A stretch of 64,000 bases of DNA from Methanomicrobiaceae archaeon. GTDB taxonomy: Archaea > Halobacteriota > Methanomicrobia > Methanomicrobiales > Methanomicrobiaceae. This document shows, piece after piece, positions 31,884 through 36,312 of this stretch. How positions within the stretch are numbered: the stretch's first letter is position 1; every line of letters begins with the position of its first letter. The position numbers were made by a program, and so were the translations under genes. Below the pieces are notes generated by a model, which ran no database searches, was not told the DNA's origin, and was given only the letters and a program-made list of their open reading frames with translations. Location of the stretch: NCBI GenBank assembly GCA_029762625.1, contig JARVGI010000001.1:62001-126000 (forward strand), read 5' to 3'.

Positions 31884-32438
31884 CTACATGATGTGTTCGA
31901 GCCGGTCCTCGAGGACATCGAGGCCGCGCCTTATATCCTCCATGTTTTTTCCGCCGGTGAGAATGATCTTGCCGGATGAGAAGAGCAGTGCCACGATCTT
32001 GGGGTCGTCGAGGCGGTAGACCAGCCCGGGGAACTGTTCGGGTTCGTACTCGATGTTTTCCAGGTTGAGGGTCATGACCACCTTGTTGAGGTTGATATAT
32101 TTGCCGATATCGTACGAGCAGACAATATTGGTGATTTTCACCTGCGGGACATCGTAGGTGTCCATGCCCGACTCTTTGAGCGCCTGGACCACAATATTCA
32201 GGCCCTTCTGCAGGTCGTCACGGTTCCGCAGGCCGGTGAGGACGATCTTTCCCGAAGAAAAGATGAGCGACGCCATTTTCGGGTTCTCGATCCGGAACAC
32301 CGCGCCCGGAAACCGCTTGGTATTGAGTTCACAGTTTTCGATTTTCTGGGAAACCTCTTCGAGGTTGATGGCATCCGCAATGACCCCGGAAGCTACGATA
32401 TTTTCAATTTTCAATGAGGCATAGCTCTTTTCAACCAT
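31884..32438 (-). CDS. tbp: TATA-box-binding protein
   Basis: The basal transcription factor TBP. The 184-residue protein is the usual two-fold repeat: KRFPGAVFRIENPKMASLIF with FSSGKIVLTG in the first half and EQFPGLVYRLDDPKIVALLF with FSSGKIILTG in the second. The ATG at 32438 (MVEKSYASLKIENIVASG) is preferred to the upstream frame extension. It is divergent from the acyl-CoA synthetase gene at 32571, with about 130 bases between them. Confidence 0.97.
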   Translation of the reverse strand: MVEKSYASLKIENIVASGVIADAINLEEVSQKIENCELNTKRFPGAVFRIENPKMASLIFSSGKIVLTGLRNRDDLQKGLNIVVQALKESGMDTYDVPQVKITNIVCSYDIGKYINLNKVVMTLNLENIEYEPEQFPGLVYRLDDPKIVALLFSSGKIILTGGKNMEDIRRGLDVLEDRLEHIM

Positions 32439-32570
32439 CGAAGTATGTGTTCTGCGTTGCAAACGATAATACTAACTGCGAACCTTTATGATGCCGGAAA
32501 AACCCTTGAATTCTCAATTTTCCCTGCCATGATCTTTTATGGTTTCCCTCCCGTACGTAGGAAGGGAACT

Positions 32571-34238
32571 ATGGTGGACATCGAGCACAACCTGCTGGAT
32601 TATGAAGAGGCAAATGCCCACTTTTCAATCGAAATCCCTGAGTATTACAACTTCGGCTACGACGTCATCGATGCGTGGGCAAAAAAAGACCGCAACAAGC
32701 TGGCCATGATCTGGGTCAACCAGGAGGGGGCGGAGAAGAAATATTCCTTCCGCGATATGATGAACCTCTCAAATTCCGCGGCGAACATCCTGCTCAAGTA
32801 CGGGATCAAGAAAGGCGACCGCGTCCTGATCATGCTCCCCCGGATCCCCGAGTGGTGGATCTTCGTCATCGCCCTGATCAAGCTGGGTGCGGTCTTCTGC
32901 CCCTGCCCGACGATGCTGACCCCCCACGACATCAAGTACCGGGTCAACGCGGGCAAATTCAGGATGATCATCACCGATCTGGCAAATGCGGACAAGGTCG
33001 AGGAGATCTGCAGTGCATGCCCCTCCCTGACCGCGCGGTTCCTCGCCGACGGGGAGCTGCCGGGGTGGGCCAGTTTCCCGTGGGAGCTCCTCTATCCCGC
33101 ACCGGTTTCGCACCGCTCGGTGAGCATGCCGGTGGAGAAGAAGACGAAATCGACCGACCCCATGCTCATCTACTTCACCTCCGGCACCACCGGCGAGGCC
33201 AAGATGGTGCTCCACGACCAGAGCTACCCGCTGGGCCATATCATCACCGCCCGGTTCTGGCAGGACGTGCGCAGCACCGATCTGCACTTCACCTTCTCGG
33301 ATACGGGCTGGGCGAAGTGCGCGTGGGGCAAGATCTTCGGGCAGTGGATCGAGGGCGCCTGCCTGTTCGTCTACGATGTGCAGGGCAAGTTCAAGGCGAC
33401 CGAGATCCTGCCGCTCCTTGACCGGTACGAGGTGACCACGTTCTGTGCGCCTCCCACGGTCTACCGCATGCTCATCCTCGCCGACCTCTCCCGGTTCGAC
33501 CTCGCCGAGCTCCGGCACTGCTGCAGCGCGGGCGAACCCCTCAACCCCGAGGTCATCCGCGTCTGGAAGGAGGGGACCGGCCTTCCCATCTACGAGGGCT
33601 ATGGGCAGACCGAAACGGCCTGCGCCATCGCCGCCTTCCCCTGCATGCCGACAAAACCCGGCTCGATGGGCAAACCCTCGCCCGGGTGGCGCGTGGAGCT
33701 CCACGACGAGGAGGGTACCCCGGTCGGGAACCACGAGGAGGGGAGGATCGCCATCAACCTCACCCCCCGGCCCCCCGGCCTGTTCGTCAAATACCTCGAC
33801 AACGAGGCGGCGAACGCGGAGTCGTTCGTGAACGGCTACTACTACACCGGCGACAAGGCCTACCGTGACGAGGACGGCTATTACTGGTTCGTGGGACGGG
33901 ACGACGACGTGATCAAGGCAAGCGGCTACCGCATCGGCCCGTTCGAGGTGGAGAGCGCCCTGCTCGAGCACCCCGCGGTGCAGGAGTCCGCGGTGGTGGG
34001 CTCCCCCGACCTGATCCGGGGGATGATCGTCAAGGCCTTCGTGGTGCTCAACGAAGGCTACGAGCCGGACGAGGACCTTGTCAAGGAGCTGCAGAACCAC
34101 GTCAAGCGGATCACCGCCCCCTACAAGTACCCCCGGACGATCGAGTTCGTCGACGAGCTGCCGAAAACCCTCTCCGGCAAGATCAAGCGCAACGTCCTGC
34201 GGGAAATGGAGCTGAATAAGAGCGAAAACATGGAGTGA
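32571..34238 (+). CDS. AMP-forming acyl-CoA synthetase
   Basis: A 555-residue adenylate-forming enzyme that activates an organic acid with ATP and CoA. Visible core motifs are YFTSGTTGEAKMV (A3), YEGYGQTE (A5), YYTGDKA and GRDDDVIKASGYRIGPFE (A7-A8) and the catalytic lysine in LSGKIKR (A10). It is closer in pattern to the medium-chain/branched acyl-CoA synthetases of methanogens than to bacterial acetyl-CoA synthetase. GGAAGGGA lies before the ATG at 32571. Its paralogue at 34444 is about 200 bases downstream and very similar in all core motifs but carries an extra N-terminal domain. Confidence 0.92.
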   Translation: MVDIEHNLLDYEEANAHFSIEIPEYYNFGYDVIDAWAKKDRNKLAMIWVNQEGAEKKYSFRDMMNLSNSAANILLKYGIKKGDRVLIMLPRIPEWWIFVIALIKLGAVFCPCPTMLTPHDIKYRVNAGKFRMIITDLANADKVEEICSACPSLTARFLADGELPGWASFPWELLYPAPVSHRSVSMPVEKKTKSTDPMLIYFTSGTTGEAKMVLHDQSYPLGHIITARFWQDVRSTDLHFTFSDTGWAKCAWGKIFGQWIEGACLFVYDVQGKFKATEILPLLDRYEVTTFCAPPTVYRMLILADLSRFDLAELRHCCSAGEPLNPEVIRVWKEGTGLPIYEGYGQTETACAIAAFPCMPTKPGSMGKPSPGWRVELHDEEGTPVGNHEEGRIAINLTPRPPGLFVKYLDNEAANAESFVNGYYYTGDKAYRDEDGYYWFVGRDDDVIKASGYRIGPFEVESALLEHPAVQESAVVGSPDLIRGMIVKAFVVLNEGYEPDEDLVKELQNHVKRITAPYKYPRTIEFVDELPKTLSGKIKRNVLREMELNKSENME

Positions 34239-34327: not shown

Positions 34328-34450
34328 TGGTGCACCGTGGACGCACCCCCGCCACGGGGCAACGGCATACGCTCCAGCGACCCGCATTCGTGGTGCGGTG
34401 ACGGATCCAAACCCTAATGAGATGCACCACGTAATCCTATGGTATGGTGC
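34328..34450. promoter_or_regulatory. cluster of TGGTGC/GCACCA half-sites around the start of the RHH-synthetase gene
   Basis: TGGTGC occurs at 34328-34333 (inside TGGTGCACC), 34391-34396 and 34445-34450, and the complement GCACCA at 34424-34429. The last two form an inverted pair with a 15-base spacer that covers the start codon at 34444. Four copies in 123 bases are more than expected by chance. Because the product begins with a ribbon-helix-helix domain, these are candidate autoregulatory operators. This is an inference from sequence only. Confidence 0.35.
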
Positions 34451-36312
34451 GATACTCCGTCACGATGGACGAAGAATTGACCCGGCAGATCGACAGCCTG
34501 TGCAGCACGAAGGGAATATCACGCTCCGAGTGGATCGGCGACGTCTGTTCCCGGTACCTGGACAACGGGGCCAACTCGGGAGCGAAACCGGAAATCTATC
34601 GTGACAAATCCATTTTTGAACAGGATGAAATGACCATTCACAATATGCTCGATTACGACGAAACCTACAGGAATTTTTCCATAAAAGTGCCCGAATATTT
34701 CAATTTCGGGTTCGACGTGATCGACGCCTGGGCGAAAAAGGACCGCAACAAGCTGGCCATGATCTGGGTGAACCAGAAGGGCGAGGAGAAGAAGTTCACC
34801 TTCCGCGAACTCTCGCTGCTCTCGAACCAGATCGTGAACATGTTCATCAAGTACAACATCAACAAGGGCGACCGTGTCCTGATCATGCTCCCGAGGGTCC
34901 CGGAATGGTGGACCTTCACCATTGCCATGATCAAGATCGGAGCGGTGTACTGCCCCGCGCCGACCATGCTCACCCCGAAAGACCTCAAGTACCGCATCGA
35001 CACCGCAGATATCAAGATGGTGATCACCGACGCCGAAAACGCCCCCAAGGTGGACGCGATCTTCGACGAGTGCCCGTCGCTGGTGAGCAGGATGGTCATC
35101 GACGACCGCCTCGACAACTGGATCAGCTATCCGGTCGAACTCGACTACCCCGCCCCGGTCTCCTCGAAGATCGCCAACCTCCCCGGCCTGAAGCACACCA
35201 AGGCGACCGACCCGCTGGTCATCTTCTTCACCTCCGGCACCACCGGCGAGGCCAAGATGGTGCTCCACGACCAGGGCTATCCGCTGGGCCACATCATCAC
35301 CGCCCGGTTCTGGCACGACGTGCGCAGCACCGATTTGCATTTCACCCTTTCCGACACCGGGTGGGCCAAGAGCGCCTGGGGCAAGCTCTACGGTCAGTGG
35401 ATCGAGGGCGCCTGCATCTTCGTCTACGACATCCGGGGCAAGTTCAATGCAACCGAGATCCTGCCACTCATCGAGAAATACGGCATCTCCACCTTCTGCG
35501 CCCCGCCGACCATCTACCGGATGCTCATTTTAGCCGACCTGGACAAGTTCGACTTCAATGCACTGCGCCACTGCGTCTCCGCGGGCGAGCCGCTCAACCC
35601 CGAGGTCATCCACGCGTGGAAAGAGGCGACGGGGCTGACGATCTACGAGGGCTACGGGCAGACCGAGACCGTGCTCTGCCTGGGCACCTTCCCCTGCATG
35701 GAGGCGAGGCACGGCTCGATGGGCAAACCCTCGCCGGGCTGGAAGGTGGAGCTCCTCGACGAGAACGCCAACCCGGTGGGCCCCCACGAGGAAGGGGTCA
35801 TTGCCATCGCCCTCGACCCGCGCCCGGTCGGGCTCATGAAGGAATACCTGGACAACGATGAGGAGAACCGCCATGTCTTCGTGGGCGACTGGTACTACAC
35901 CGGCGACAAGGCCTACAAGGACGAAGACGGCTACTACTGGTTCGTGGGACGCGACGACGACGTGATCAAGGCAAGCGGCTACCGCATCGGCCCGTTCGAG
36001 GTGGAGAGCGCCCTCATCGAGCACCCCGCGGTGCAGGAGGCGGCGGTGGTGGGCTCCCCCGACGTCATCCGCGGCCTGATCGTCAAGGCATACGTGATCC
36101 TCGCACCCGGGTACACACCATCCGACGGCCTCGTCAAGGAGCTGCAGCACCATGTCAAGAAGGTGACCGCACCATACAAGTACCCCCGGGCCATCGAGTA
36201 CGTCGACGAGCTGCCCAAGACCATCTCCGGCAAGATCCGGAGAAATGTACTGCGGGAGCGGGAGCTGGAAAAATTCCAGAACGAAAAGGAGTCCGGCCCC
36301 GCAGCCCAATAA
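34444..36312 (+). CDS. acyl-CoA synthetase with an N-terminal ribbon-helix-helix DNA-binding domain
   Basis: A 622-residue fusion. Residues 1-41 form a CopG/MetJ-type ribbon-helix-helix domain: strand MVRYSVTMDEEL, helix TRQIDSLCSTKG, then ISRSEWIGDVCSRYLD. Residues 42-62 are a polar linker, and from Met63 on the protein is a complete AMP-forming acyl-CoA synthetase (FFTSGTTGEAKMV, YEGYGQTE, YYTGDKA, GRDDDVIKASGYRIGPFE, catalytic Lys in ISGKIRR). The frame runs without a break through both parts. Met63 at 34630, with AGGATGA just before it, could be an internal start for a stand-alone enzyme. The domain pairing recalls PutA, an enzyme that represses its own gene. Substrate acid unknown. Confidence 0.88.
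   Translation: MVRYSVTMDEELTRQIDSLCSTKGISRSEWIGDVCSRYLDNGANSGAKPEIYRDKSIFEQDEMTIHNMLDYDETYRNFSIKVPEYFNFGFDVIDAWAKKDRNKLAMIWVNQKGEEKKFTFRELSLLSNQIVNMFIKYNINKGDRVLIMLPRVPEWWTFTIAMIKIGAVYCPAPTMLTPKDLKYRIDTADIKMVITDAENAPKVDAIFDECPSLVSRMVIDDRLDNWISYPVELDYPAPVSSKIANLPGLKHTKATDPLVIFFTSGTTGEAKMVLHDQGYPLGHIITARFWHDVRSTDLHFTLSDTGWAKSAWGKLYGQWIEGACIFVYDIRGKFNATEILPLIEKYGISTFCAPPTIYRMLILADLDKFDFNALRHCVSAGEPLNPEVIHAWKEATGLTIYEGYGQTETVLCLGTFPCMEARHGSMGKPSPGWKVELLDENANPVGPHEEGVIAIALDPRPVGLMKEYLDNDEENRHVFVGDWYYTGDKAYKDEDGYYWFVGRDDDVIKASGYRIGPFEVESALIEHPAVQEAAVVGSPDVIRGLIVKAYVILAPGYTPSDGLVKELQHHVKKVTAPYKYPRAIEYVDELPKTISGKIRRNVLRERELEKFQNEKESGPAAQ

Follow-up and report, generated by a model that had tools for sequence, protein, structure and literature searches.

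Only a few enzymes are known to carry a fused DNA-binding domain with which they control the genes that encode them, and PutA is the standard case in which that domain is of the ribbon–helix–helix (RHH) type. BirA, the biotin ligase–repressor, is an acyl-adenylate-forming enzyme in which an N-terminal winged helix–turn–helix is combined with a biotin-ligase fold, and in the RHH regulator NikR particular strand residues have contact roles. PutA is an RHH–enzyme fusion that exerts autogenous repression (PMC5293562). The pocket residues of the acyl-CoA synthetase MacsMa of Methanosarcina acetivorans, including Trp259, have been detailed; this enzyme prefers 2-methylbutyrate, and with its preferred acid the acyl-adenylate stays held in place until CoA arrives (PMC10455477).

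The gene described here lies in a window (the whole stretch of archaeal DNA that was analysed, 64,000 nucleotides) and encodes an acyl-CoA synthetase (ACS) that opens with a predicted RHH domain. By membership, this RHH-ACS is an RHH domain plus a Macs-like ACS, and by inference it extends the class of self-regulating enzymes. It resembles PutA in being a catabolic enzyme that is headed by an RHH domain and in autogenous control of its own regulon, the latter inferred from operator-like sites at its own gene and at that of the acid transporter AceTr. It differs from PutA in being archaeal and of an unrelated, adenylate-forming class, in having no flavin or redox switch, and in an operator-like element that runs into the start codon of a gene whose transcript is probably leaderless. 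The domains of the PutA family (proline dehydrogenase and P5C dehydrogenase) are not in the window protein, which has only the AMP-binding domains and the RHH domain; it is inferred to work like PutA, but it is not a PutA. The likeness to BirA is that both are adenylate-forming enzymes with an N-terminal DNA-binding domain, such that the adenylate is a plausible effector, yet the winged helix–turn–helix and biotin-ligase fold of BirA are here replaced by RHH and an ANL-superfamily ACS, and an adenylate signal has not been shown in RHH-ACS. No description of the fusion was found in the open literature searched, with subscription journals mostly outside that search. What is new here is a conserved operator-like element on the promoter and start codon of the RHH-ACS gene itself.

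Architecture of the protein

34444–36312, + strand: RHH–acyl-CoA synthetase fusion gene, 622 amino acids, a single unbroken frame
34444–34566, + strand: RHH DNA-binding domain (predicted), residues 1–41, with strand residues R3, S5 and T7 and helices at 10–23 and 27–41
34567–34629, + strand: linker, residues 42–62, variable, poorly conserved and probably flexible (AlphaFold2 pLDDT <50 at 42–61)
34723–35850, + strand: AMP-binding domain, residues 94–469 (Pfam, 217.9 bits), with a Macs-type pocket
35998–36234, + strand: AMP-binding_C domain, residues 519–597 (Pfam, 83.5 bits), with the catalytic lysine motif SGKI (K597)

An earlier note on this DNA had proposed one unbroken frame in which a CopG-like RHH domain at residues 1–41 precedes an AMP-forming ACS, and both parts of that proposal hold: the frame spans 34444–36312 and contains both AMP-binding Pfam domains, and the RHH assignment is backed by profiles, orthologues and predicted structure. 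The match of the window protein to RHH_1 (residues 5–31; 16.2–20.1 bits) falls slightly under the Pfam cut-off of 20.5, and RHH_1 matches 36 of 39 orthologous N-termini, some of them above the cut-off. A profile of the N-terminus has NikR as its top solved structure (E 3.6e-4), in an alignment that begins at Met1, while the NCBIfam matches are to NikR and to the RHH regulator aCcr1. Foldseek aligned the predicted domain with StnY, CopG–DNA, MazE6, AmrZ and Arc, all of which are RHH proteins, at weak E-values that are expected because the domain is so small. AlphaFold2 models place the two helices as listed and have low confidence in the linker. The strand with alternate polar residues and the two helices are those of a CopG/NikR-type fold, and residues 1–41 are accordingly assigned as an RHH domain of this type; sequence-specific binding to DNA as a dimer is inferred only indirectly, from the conserved inverted half-sites that occur with it.

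The conserved N-terminal block of the orthologues, MVR[YF]S[VI][TS]MDD.L...ID........SRS[ED]WI, begins exactly at Met1. NikR is the nearest RHH protein by profile, and its contact residues R3/T5/T7 correspond to R3/S5/T7 in RHH-ACS, where R3 and S5 are invariant across orthologues and T7 is Thr or Ser. Paired inverted half-sites about two helical turns apart are a further likeness to NikR; RHH-ACS differs in having no nickel-binding domain and in the half-site itself.

The C-terminal 550 residues are an AMP-forming ACS that is 47 per cent identical to MacsMa (PDB 3ETC) and shares its pocket tryptophan (W312 aligns with MacsMa W259), although MacsMa and MbcS synthetases carry no DNA-binding domain. 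AMP-binding and C-terminal domains with conserved motifs place it among the Macs/MbcS-type members of the ANL superfamily; the NCBIfam MbcS equivalog cut-off is missed by the window protein (510 vs 850 bits). All catalytic motifs (P-loop, YTGD and the SGKI lysine) are invariant in an alignment of 45 relatives, and the enzyme is therefore probably active, an activity that is inferred from sequence. A glycine stands in EGYGQTET where Acs has Trp416. Given this Macs-type pocket, acetate is a less likely substrate than acids in the range from propionate to branched C5 chains; with the MbcS cut-off missed, no substrate is assigned.

Distribution and ancestry

Across the order Methanomicrobiales, the N-terminus profile (E below 1e-14) found the RHH domain in 115 of 232 genomes, nearly always opening an ACS frame and with the first codons retained from Met1. 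The fusion occurs in families f1, f4 and f6 and in a single f5 genome, and named relatives include Methanoregula (L031) and Methanoculleus (L035). No RHH-ACS was found outside Methanomicrobiales among 394 genomes drawn across the whole phylum, none was found in viral contigs, and the ACS relatives in Methanosarcina and bacteria have no RHH domain. Recurrence in 115 genomes and purifying selection on codons 1–41, with dN/dS about 0.2 or less in five pairs, show that the fusion did not arise as a chance open frame.

The fusion genes do not fall into one clean clade: on a quick tree, the RHH label has to change at least 4 times. The RHH lineages branch first, and the fusion is therefore likely to be ancestral and to have been lost several times, although gene conversion between the tandem paralogues is not excluded. 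In genome G111 (L164, genus g22), a stop-broken RHH pseudogene at about 798–902 lies ahead of an intact ACS, which reads as a natural loss of the regulatory domain caught midway.

The promoter and start codon

34391–34396, + strand: half-site 1, TGGTGC, at −53, 5′ of the TATA region
34405–34420, + strand: probable BRE/TATA region, relatives' consensus CGAAActtTtATtaa; a weak match in the window, where it is inferred
34424–34429, − strand: half-site 2, GCACCA, at −20, 3′ of the TATA region and 5′ of the start codon
34445–34450, + strand: half-site 3, TGGTGC, at +2, shared with the start codon, the Val2 codon and the first base of that for Arg3

The layout common to RHH-ACS genes is TGGTGC-N27-[TATA region]-GCACCA-N15 (about 15 bp)-TGGTGC, in which the last half-site is formed by the start codon and the Val2 and Arg3 codons (ATGGTGCGN) and, in relatives, the BRE/TATA-like consensus sits between half-sites 1 and 2. 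The half-site centres are 21 and 33 bp apart, or about two and three helical turns. Since the TATA region lies only about 28 bp from the ATG, a leaderless transcript is suggested, and the promoter is inferred to be probably of that kind.

At least two half-sites are present in the region −100 to +9 of 59/61 RHH-ACS genes, compared with 2/106 ACS genes without an added domain and 0/11 ACS genes with an HTH_17 domain; shuffled sequence gives a mean of 0.036 sites per region. The starts of the plain ACS genes were set by rule and may be some codons off, and these counts, like those for the transporter below, treat related genomes as independent, so that P values are too small and only indicative. 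GCACCA occurs at −26 to −12 in 58 of the 61 RHH-ACS genes, and in most genes a half-site upstream of the BRE keeps a fixed distance of 32–35 bp from this GCACCA. Codon choice at the start of the gene is skewed as well: GTG encodes Val2 in 54/61 genes, where their remaining codons would predict about 18, and CGA encodes Arg3 in 35/61, although it makes up 3.6 per cent of Arg codons elsewhere in those genes. This skew indicates that a constraint at the level of DNA overlaps the coding start, and in six genomes of the family (G006, G014–G017 and G025) GCACCA-N13-16-TGGTGC is unique in the genome, at the RHH-ACS start codon. The start-codon half-site has degenerated in genera g36 and g26.

TGGTGC is missing altogether from two RHH-ACS genes, both from genus g31 (L179 and L180). 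Here the upstream element reads TGGTTC-N27-GAACCA, such that the 27-bp spacing is kept and the same base is changed in both upstream half-sites, and the protein starts MGRFS instead of MVR[YF]S (V2 to G). This covariation of the half-sites with the start of the RHH domain is a single evolutionary event, yet a telling one.

Exact operator-like matches also occur at 33184–33210 and 35237–35263, where the P-loop is encoded in each of the window's two ACS genes, and were set aside as a codon-usage coincidence. These GCACCA-N15-TGGTGC matches reflect codon choice for GTTGEAKMV in G+C-rich genomes, being present also in plain ACS genes (5/19 scorable G+C-rich) and missing from A+T-rich RHH-ACS genes. 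A second site in the window's own genome was likewise not accepted, as the only exact match of the narrow pattern outside ACS genes falls inside a long open reading frame.

Other candidate targets

A further exact match pointed to AceTr/SatP, a transporter for acetate uptake (PF01184; above the NCBIfam cut-off for AceTr_1). Among genomes with the RHH domain, TGGTGC/GCACCA half-sites precede 25/26 AceTr genes of the subtype NPAPLGLC[AS]FG and 1/26 of other subtypes, and at least two half-sites occur at genes of the NPAPLGLC[AS]FG subtype in 22/26 cases in RHH genomes vs 1/10 in genomes lacking RHH; the division into subtypes was post hoc. In several AceTr genes a TATA-like box is followed directly by GCACCA, with GGTGC about 21 bp beyond, an arrangement like that at the ACS gene. 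AceTr is absent from the window's own genome, and the regulon there may thus be the RHH-ACS gene alone, in which case self-regulation may be the whole regulon. The g31 AceTr was considered as a test of altered specificity and is uninformative because it belongs to another subtype, without sites.

A PaaI-like hotdog thioesterase gene (L155, 2596–3018; G019) lies directly upstream of an AceTr gene that bears the operator-like sites. In genus g8 (L159 and L160, around 2300–2550) a cluster of TGGTGC/GCACCA lies between two divergent 2-isopropylmalate synthase genes, and a link between acid activation and leucine synthesis is possible there.

The tandem paralogue

32571–34238, + strand: tandem plain acyl-CoA synthetase paralogue, without RHH; its orthologues in genera g4, g6, g7 and g8 carry HTH_17

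That the paralogue at 32571 lacks the RHH domain, as had been noted earlier, was borne out for the window's genome. In genera g4, g6, g7 and g8 its orthologues (L025, L138 and L143–L151) carry an N-terminal HTH_17 domain, excisionase/MerR-like, at 48–54 bits against a cut-off of 27. The HTH_17-ACS genes form one clade, and 10 of the 11 have no TGGTGC sites; in this sister lineage, by domain assignment, each of the two tandem acid-activating enzymes bears a DNA-binding domain, and the two domains differ in fold. GCACCA sites are also present upstream of the plain tandem paralogue in genus g9.

Upstream of the HTH_17-ACS genes are ACAT/ATACAT-like repeats that may be a second type of operator. 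Divergent to the plain paralogue of the window, a probable TATA-binding protein gene was identified by eye only at 31884–32462 (− strand), and similar sequence precedes the plain ACS genes of several further families of Methanomicrobiales.

Discussion

A PutA-like enzyme would join a DNA-binding domain to an intact metabolic enzyme, which is the arrangement found here, and would have an operator at its own promoter, for which there is a conserved operator-like element tied to the RHH domain and no binding data. The comparisons make it very probable that RHH-ACS binds DNA at its own promoter. That the gene encodes a PutA-like self-regulating enzyme, as the earlier note had proposed, gains support from a conserved inverted-repeat element that covers the gene's promoter and start codon, is present where the RHH domain is, and is found again ahead of an acid-transporter gene; we regard it as probable in the absence of binding, expression or ligand data. 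Repression as the net effect is inferred with somewhat less assurance, and control by the substrate or by the acyl-AMP/CoA state is an inference only slightly favoured over its absence.

In the mechanism proposed, RHH-ACS dimerised through the RHH domain, and perhaps further assembled through the ACS domain, would occupy the half-sites and block TFB or RNA polymerase at the probably leaderless promoter, thereby repressing the RHH-ACS gene and, in genomes that have one, an acid importer of the AceTr type. The ACS domain would serve as the sensor of acid availability: as a short or branched-chain acid is bound or turned over, the affinity for DNA would change, whether through the acyl-AMP state or through rotation of the C-terminal domain with CoA, and repression would be released when acid is available, as in PutA with proline. 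A held acyl-adenylate, as in MacsMa, could be a stable signalling state, as in BirA, although this link is inferred.

It is conceivable that the protein is simply an enzyme, with an RHH domain that is a decaying remnant, and the degraded domain ahead of an intact ACS in G111 demonstrates that loss does occur; the purifying selection on codons 1–41 and the conservation of both domain and operator-like element across the order leave very little room for this. No more credible is the internal start at 34630 suggested in the earlier note, from which a plain enzyme beginning at Met63 would be made beside the regulator–enzyme beginning at Met1, for although the ATG is present, Met63 is missing in the closely related congener L003 and just 7 of 61 relatives have any Met nearby.

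The DNA element itself admits other readings. The half-sites might be bound by another transcription factor, with the RHH domain serving in oligomerisation, in tethering to the locus or at other sites; operators and binders have not been matched by experiment, and the same genomes hold further RHH proteins, with weaker matches. This is nevertheless unlikely, given that half-sites are nearly always missing where the ACS has no RHH domain, that the half-site change in g31 accompanies an altered RHH N-terminus, and that the positions aligned with NikR contacts, R3/S5/T7, are invariant or Thr/Ser. A little less improbable is that RHH-ACS is an activator, in which the TGGTGC at −53 recruits TFB/TBP when acid is present, a reading favoured by the half-site that most genes have upstream of the BRE at a fixed spacing. 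The best conserved half-sites, however, lie downstream of the TATA region and at the start codon, positions at which a bound protein should obstruct the polymerase, and autogenous repression remains the preferred reading.

Methanomicrobium mobile, a member of the Methanomicrobiales, requires acetate, isovalerate, 2-methylbutyrate and isobutyrate (PMC10658910), a requirement with which acid scavenging by RHH-ACS fits. It is possible, although we hold it only tentatively, that acid-activating enzymes are themselves the transcriptional acid sensors in Methanomicrobiales, with the RHH lineage acting at its own promoter and that of the importer, as well as at the leucine-pathway synthases in one genus, and the HTH_17 paralogue acting on sites of its own. 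If true, the acyl-adenylate cycle of the ANL fold would be a transcriptional signal, and BirA-like logic would have been reached independently at least twice. RHH-ACS would offer archaeal genetics a compact regulator that responds to acid, apparently as a single component and through a defined site, and g31 a natural case of changed binding specificity, for which there are no binding data. Methanomicrobiales depend on acids from their environment, and the sensing of these acids now has a named candidate protein, a putative operator and a short list of targets, and is thus testable at once.
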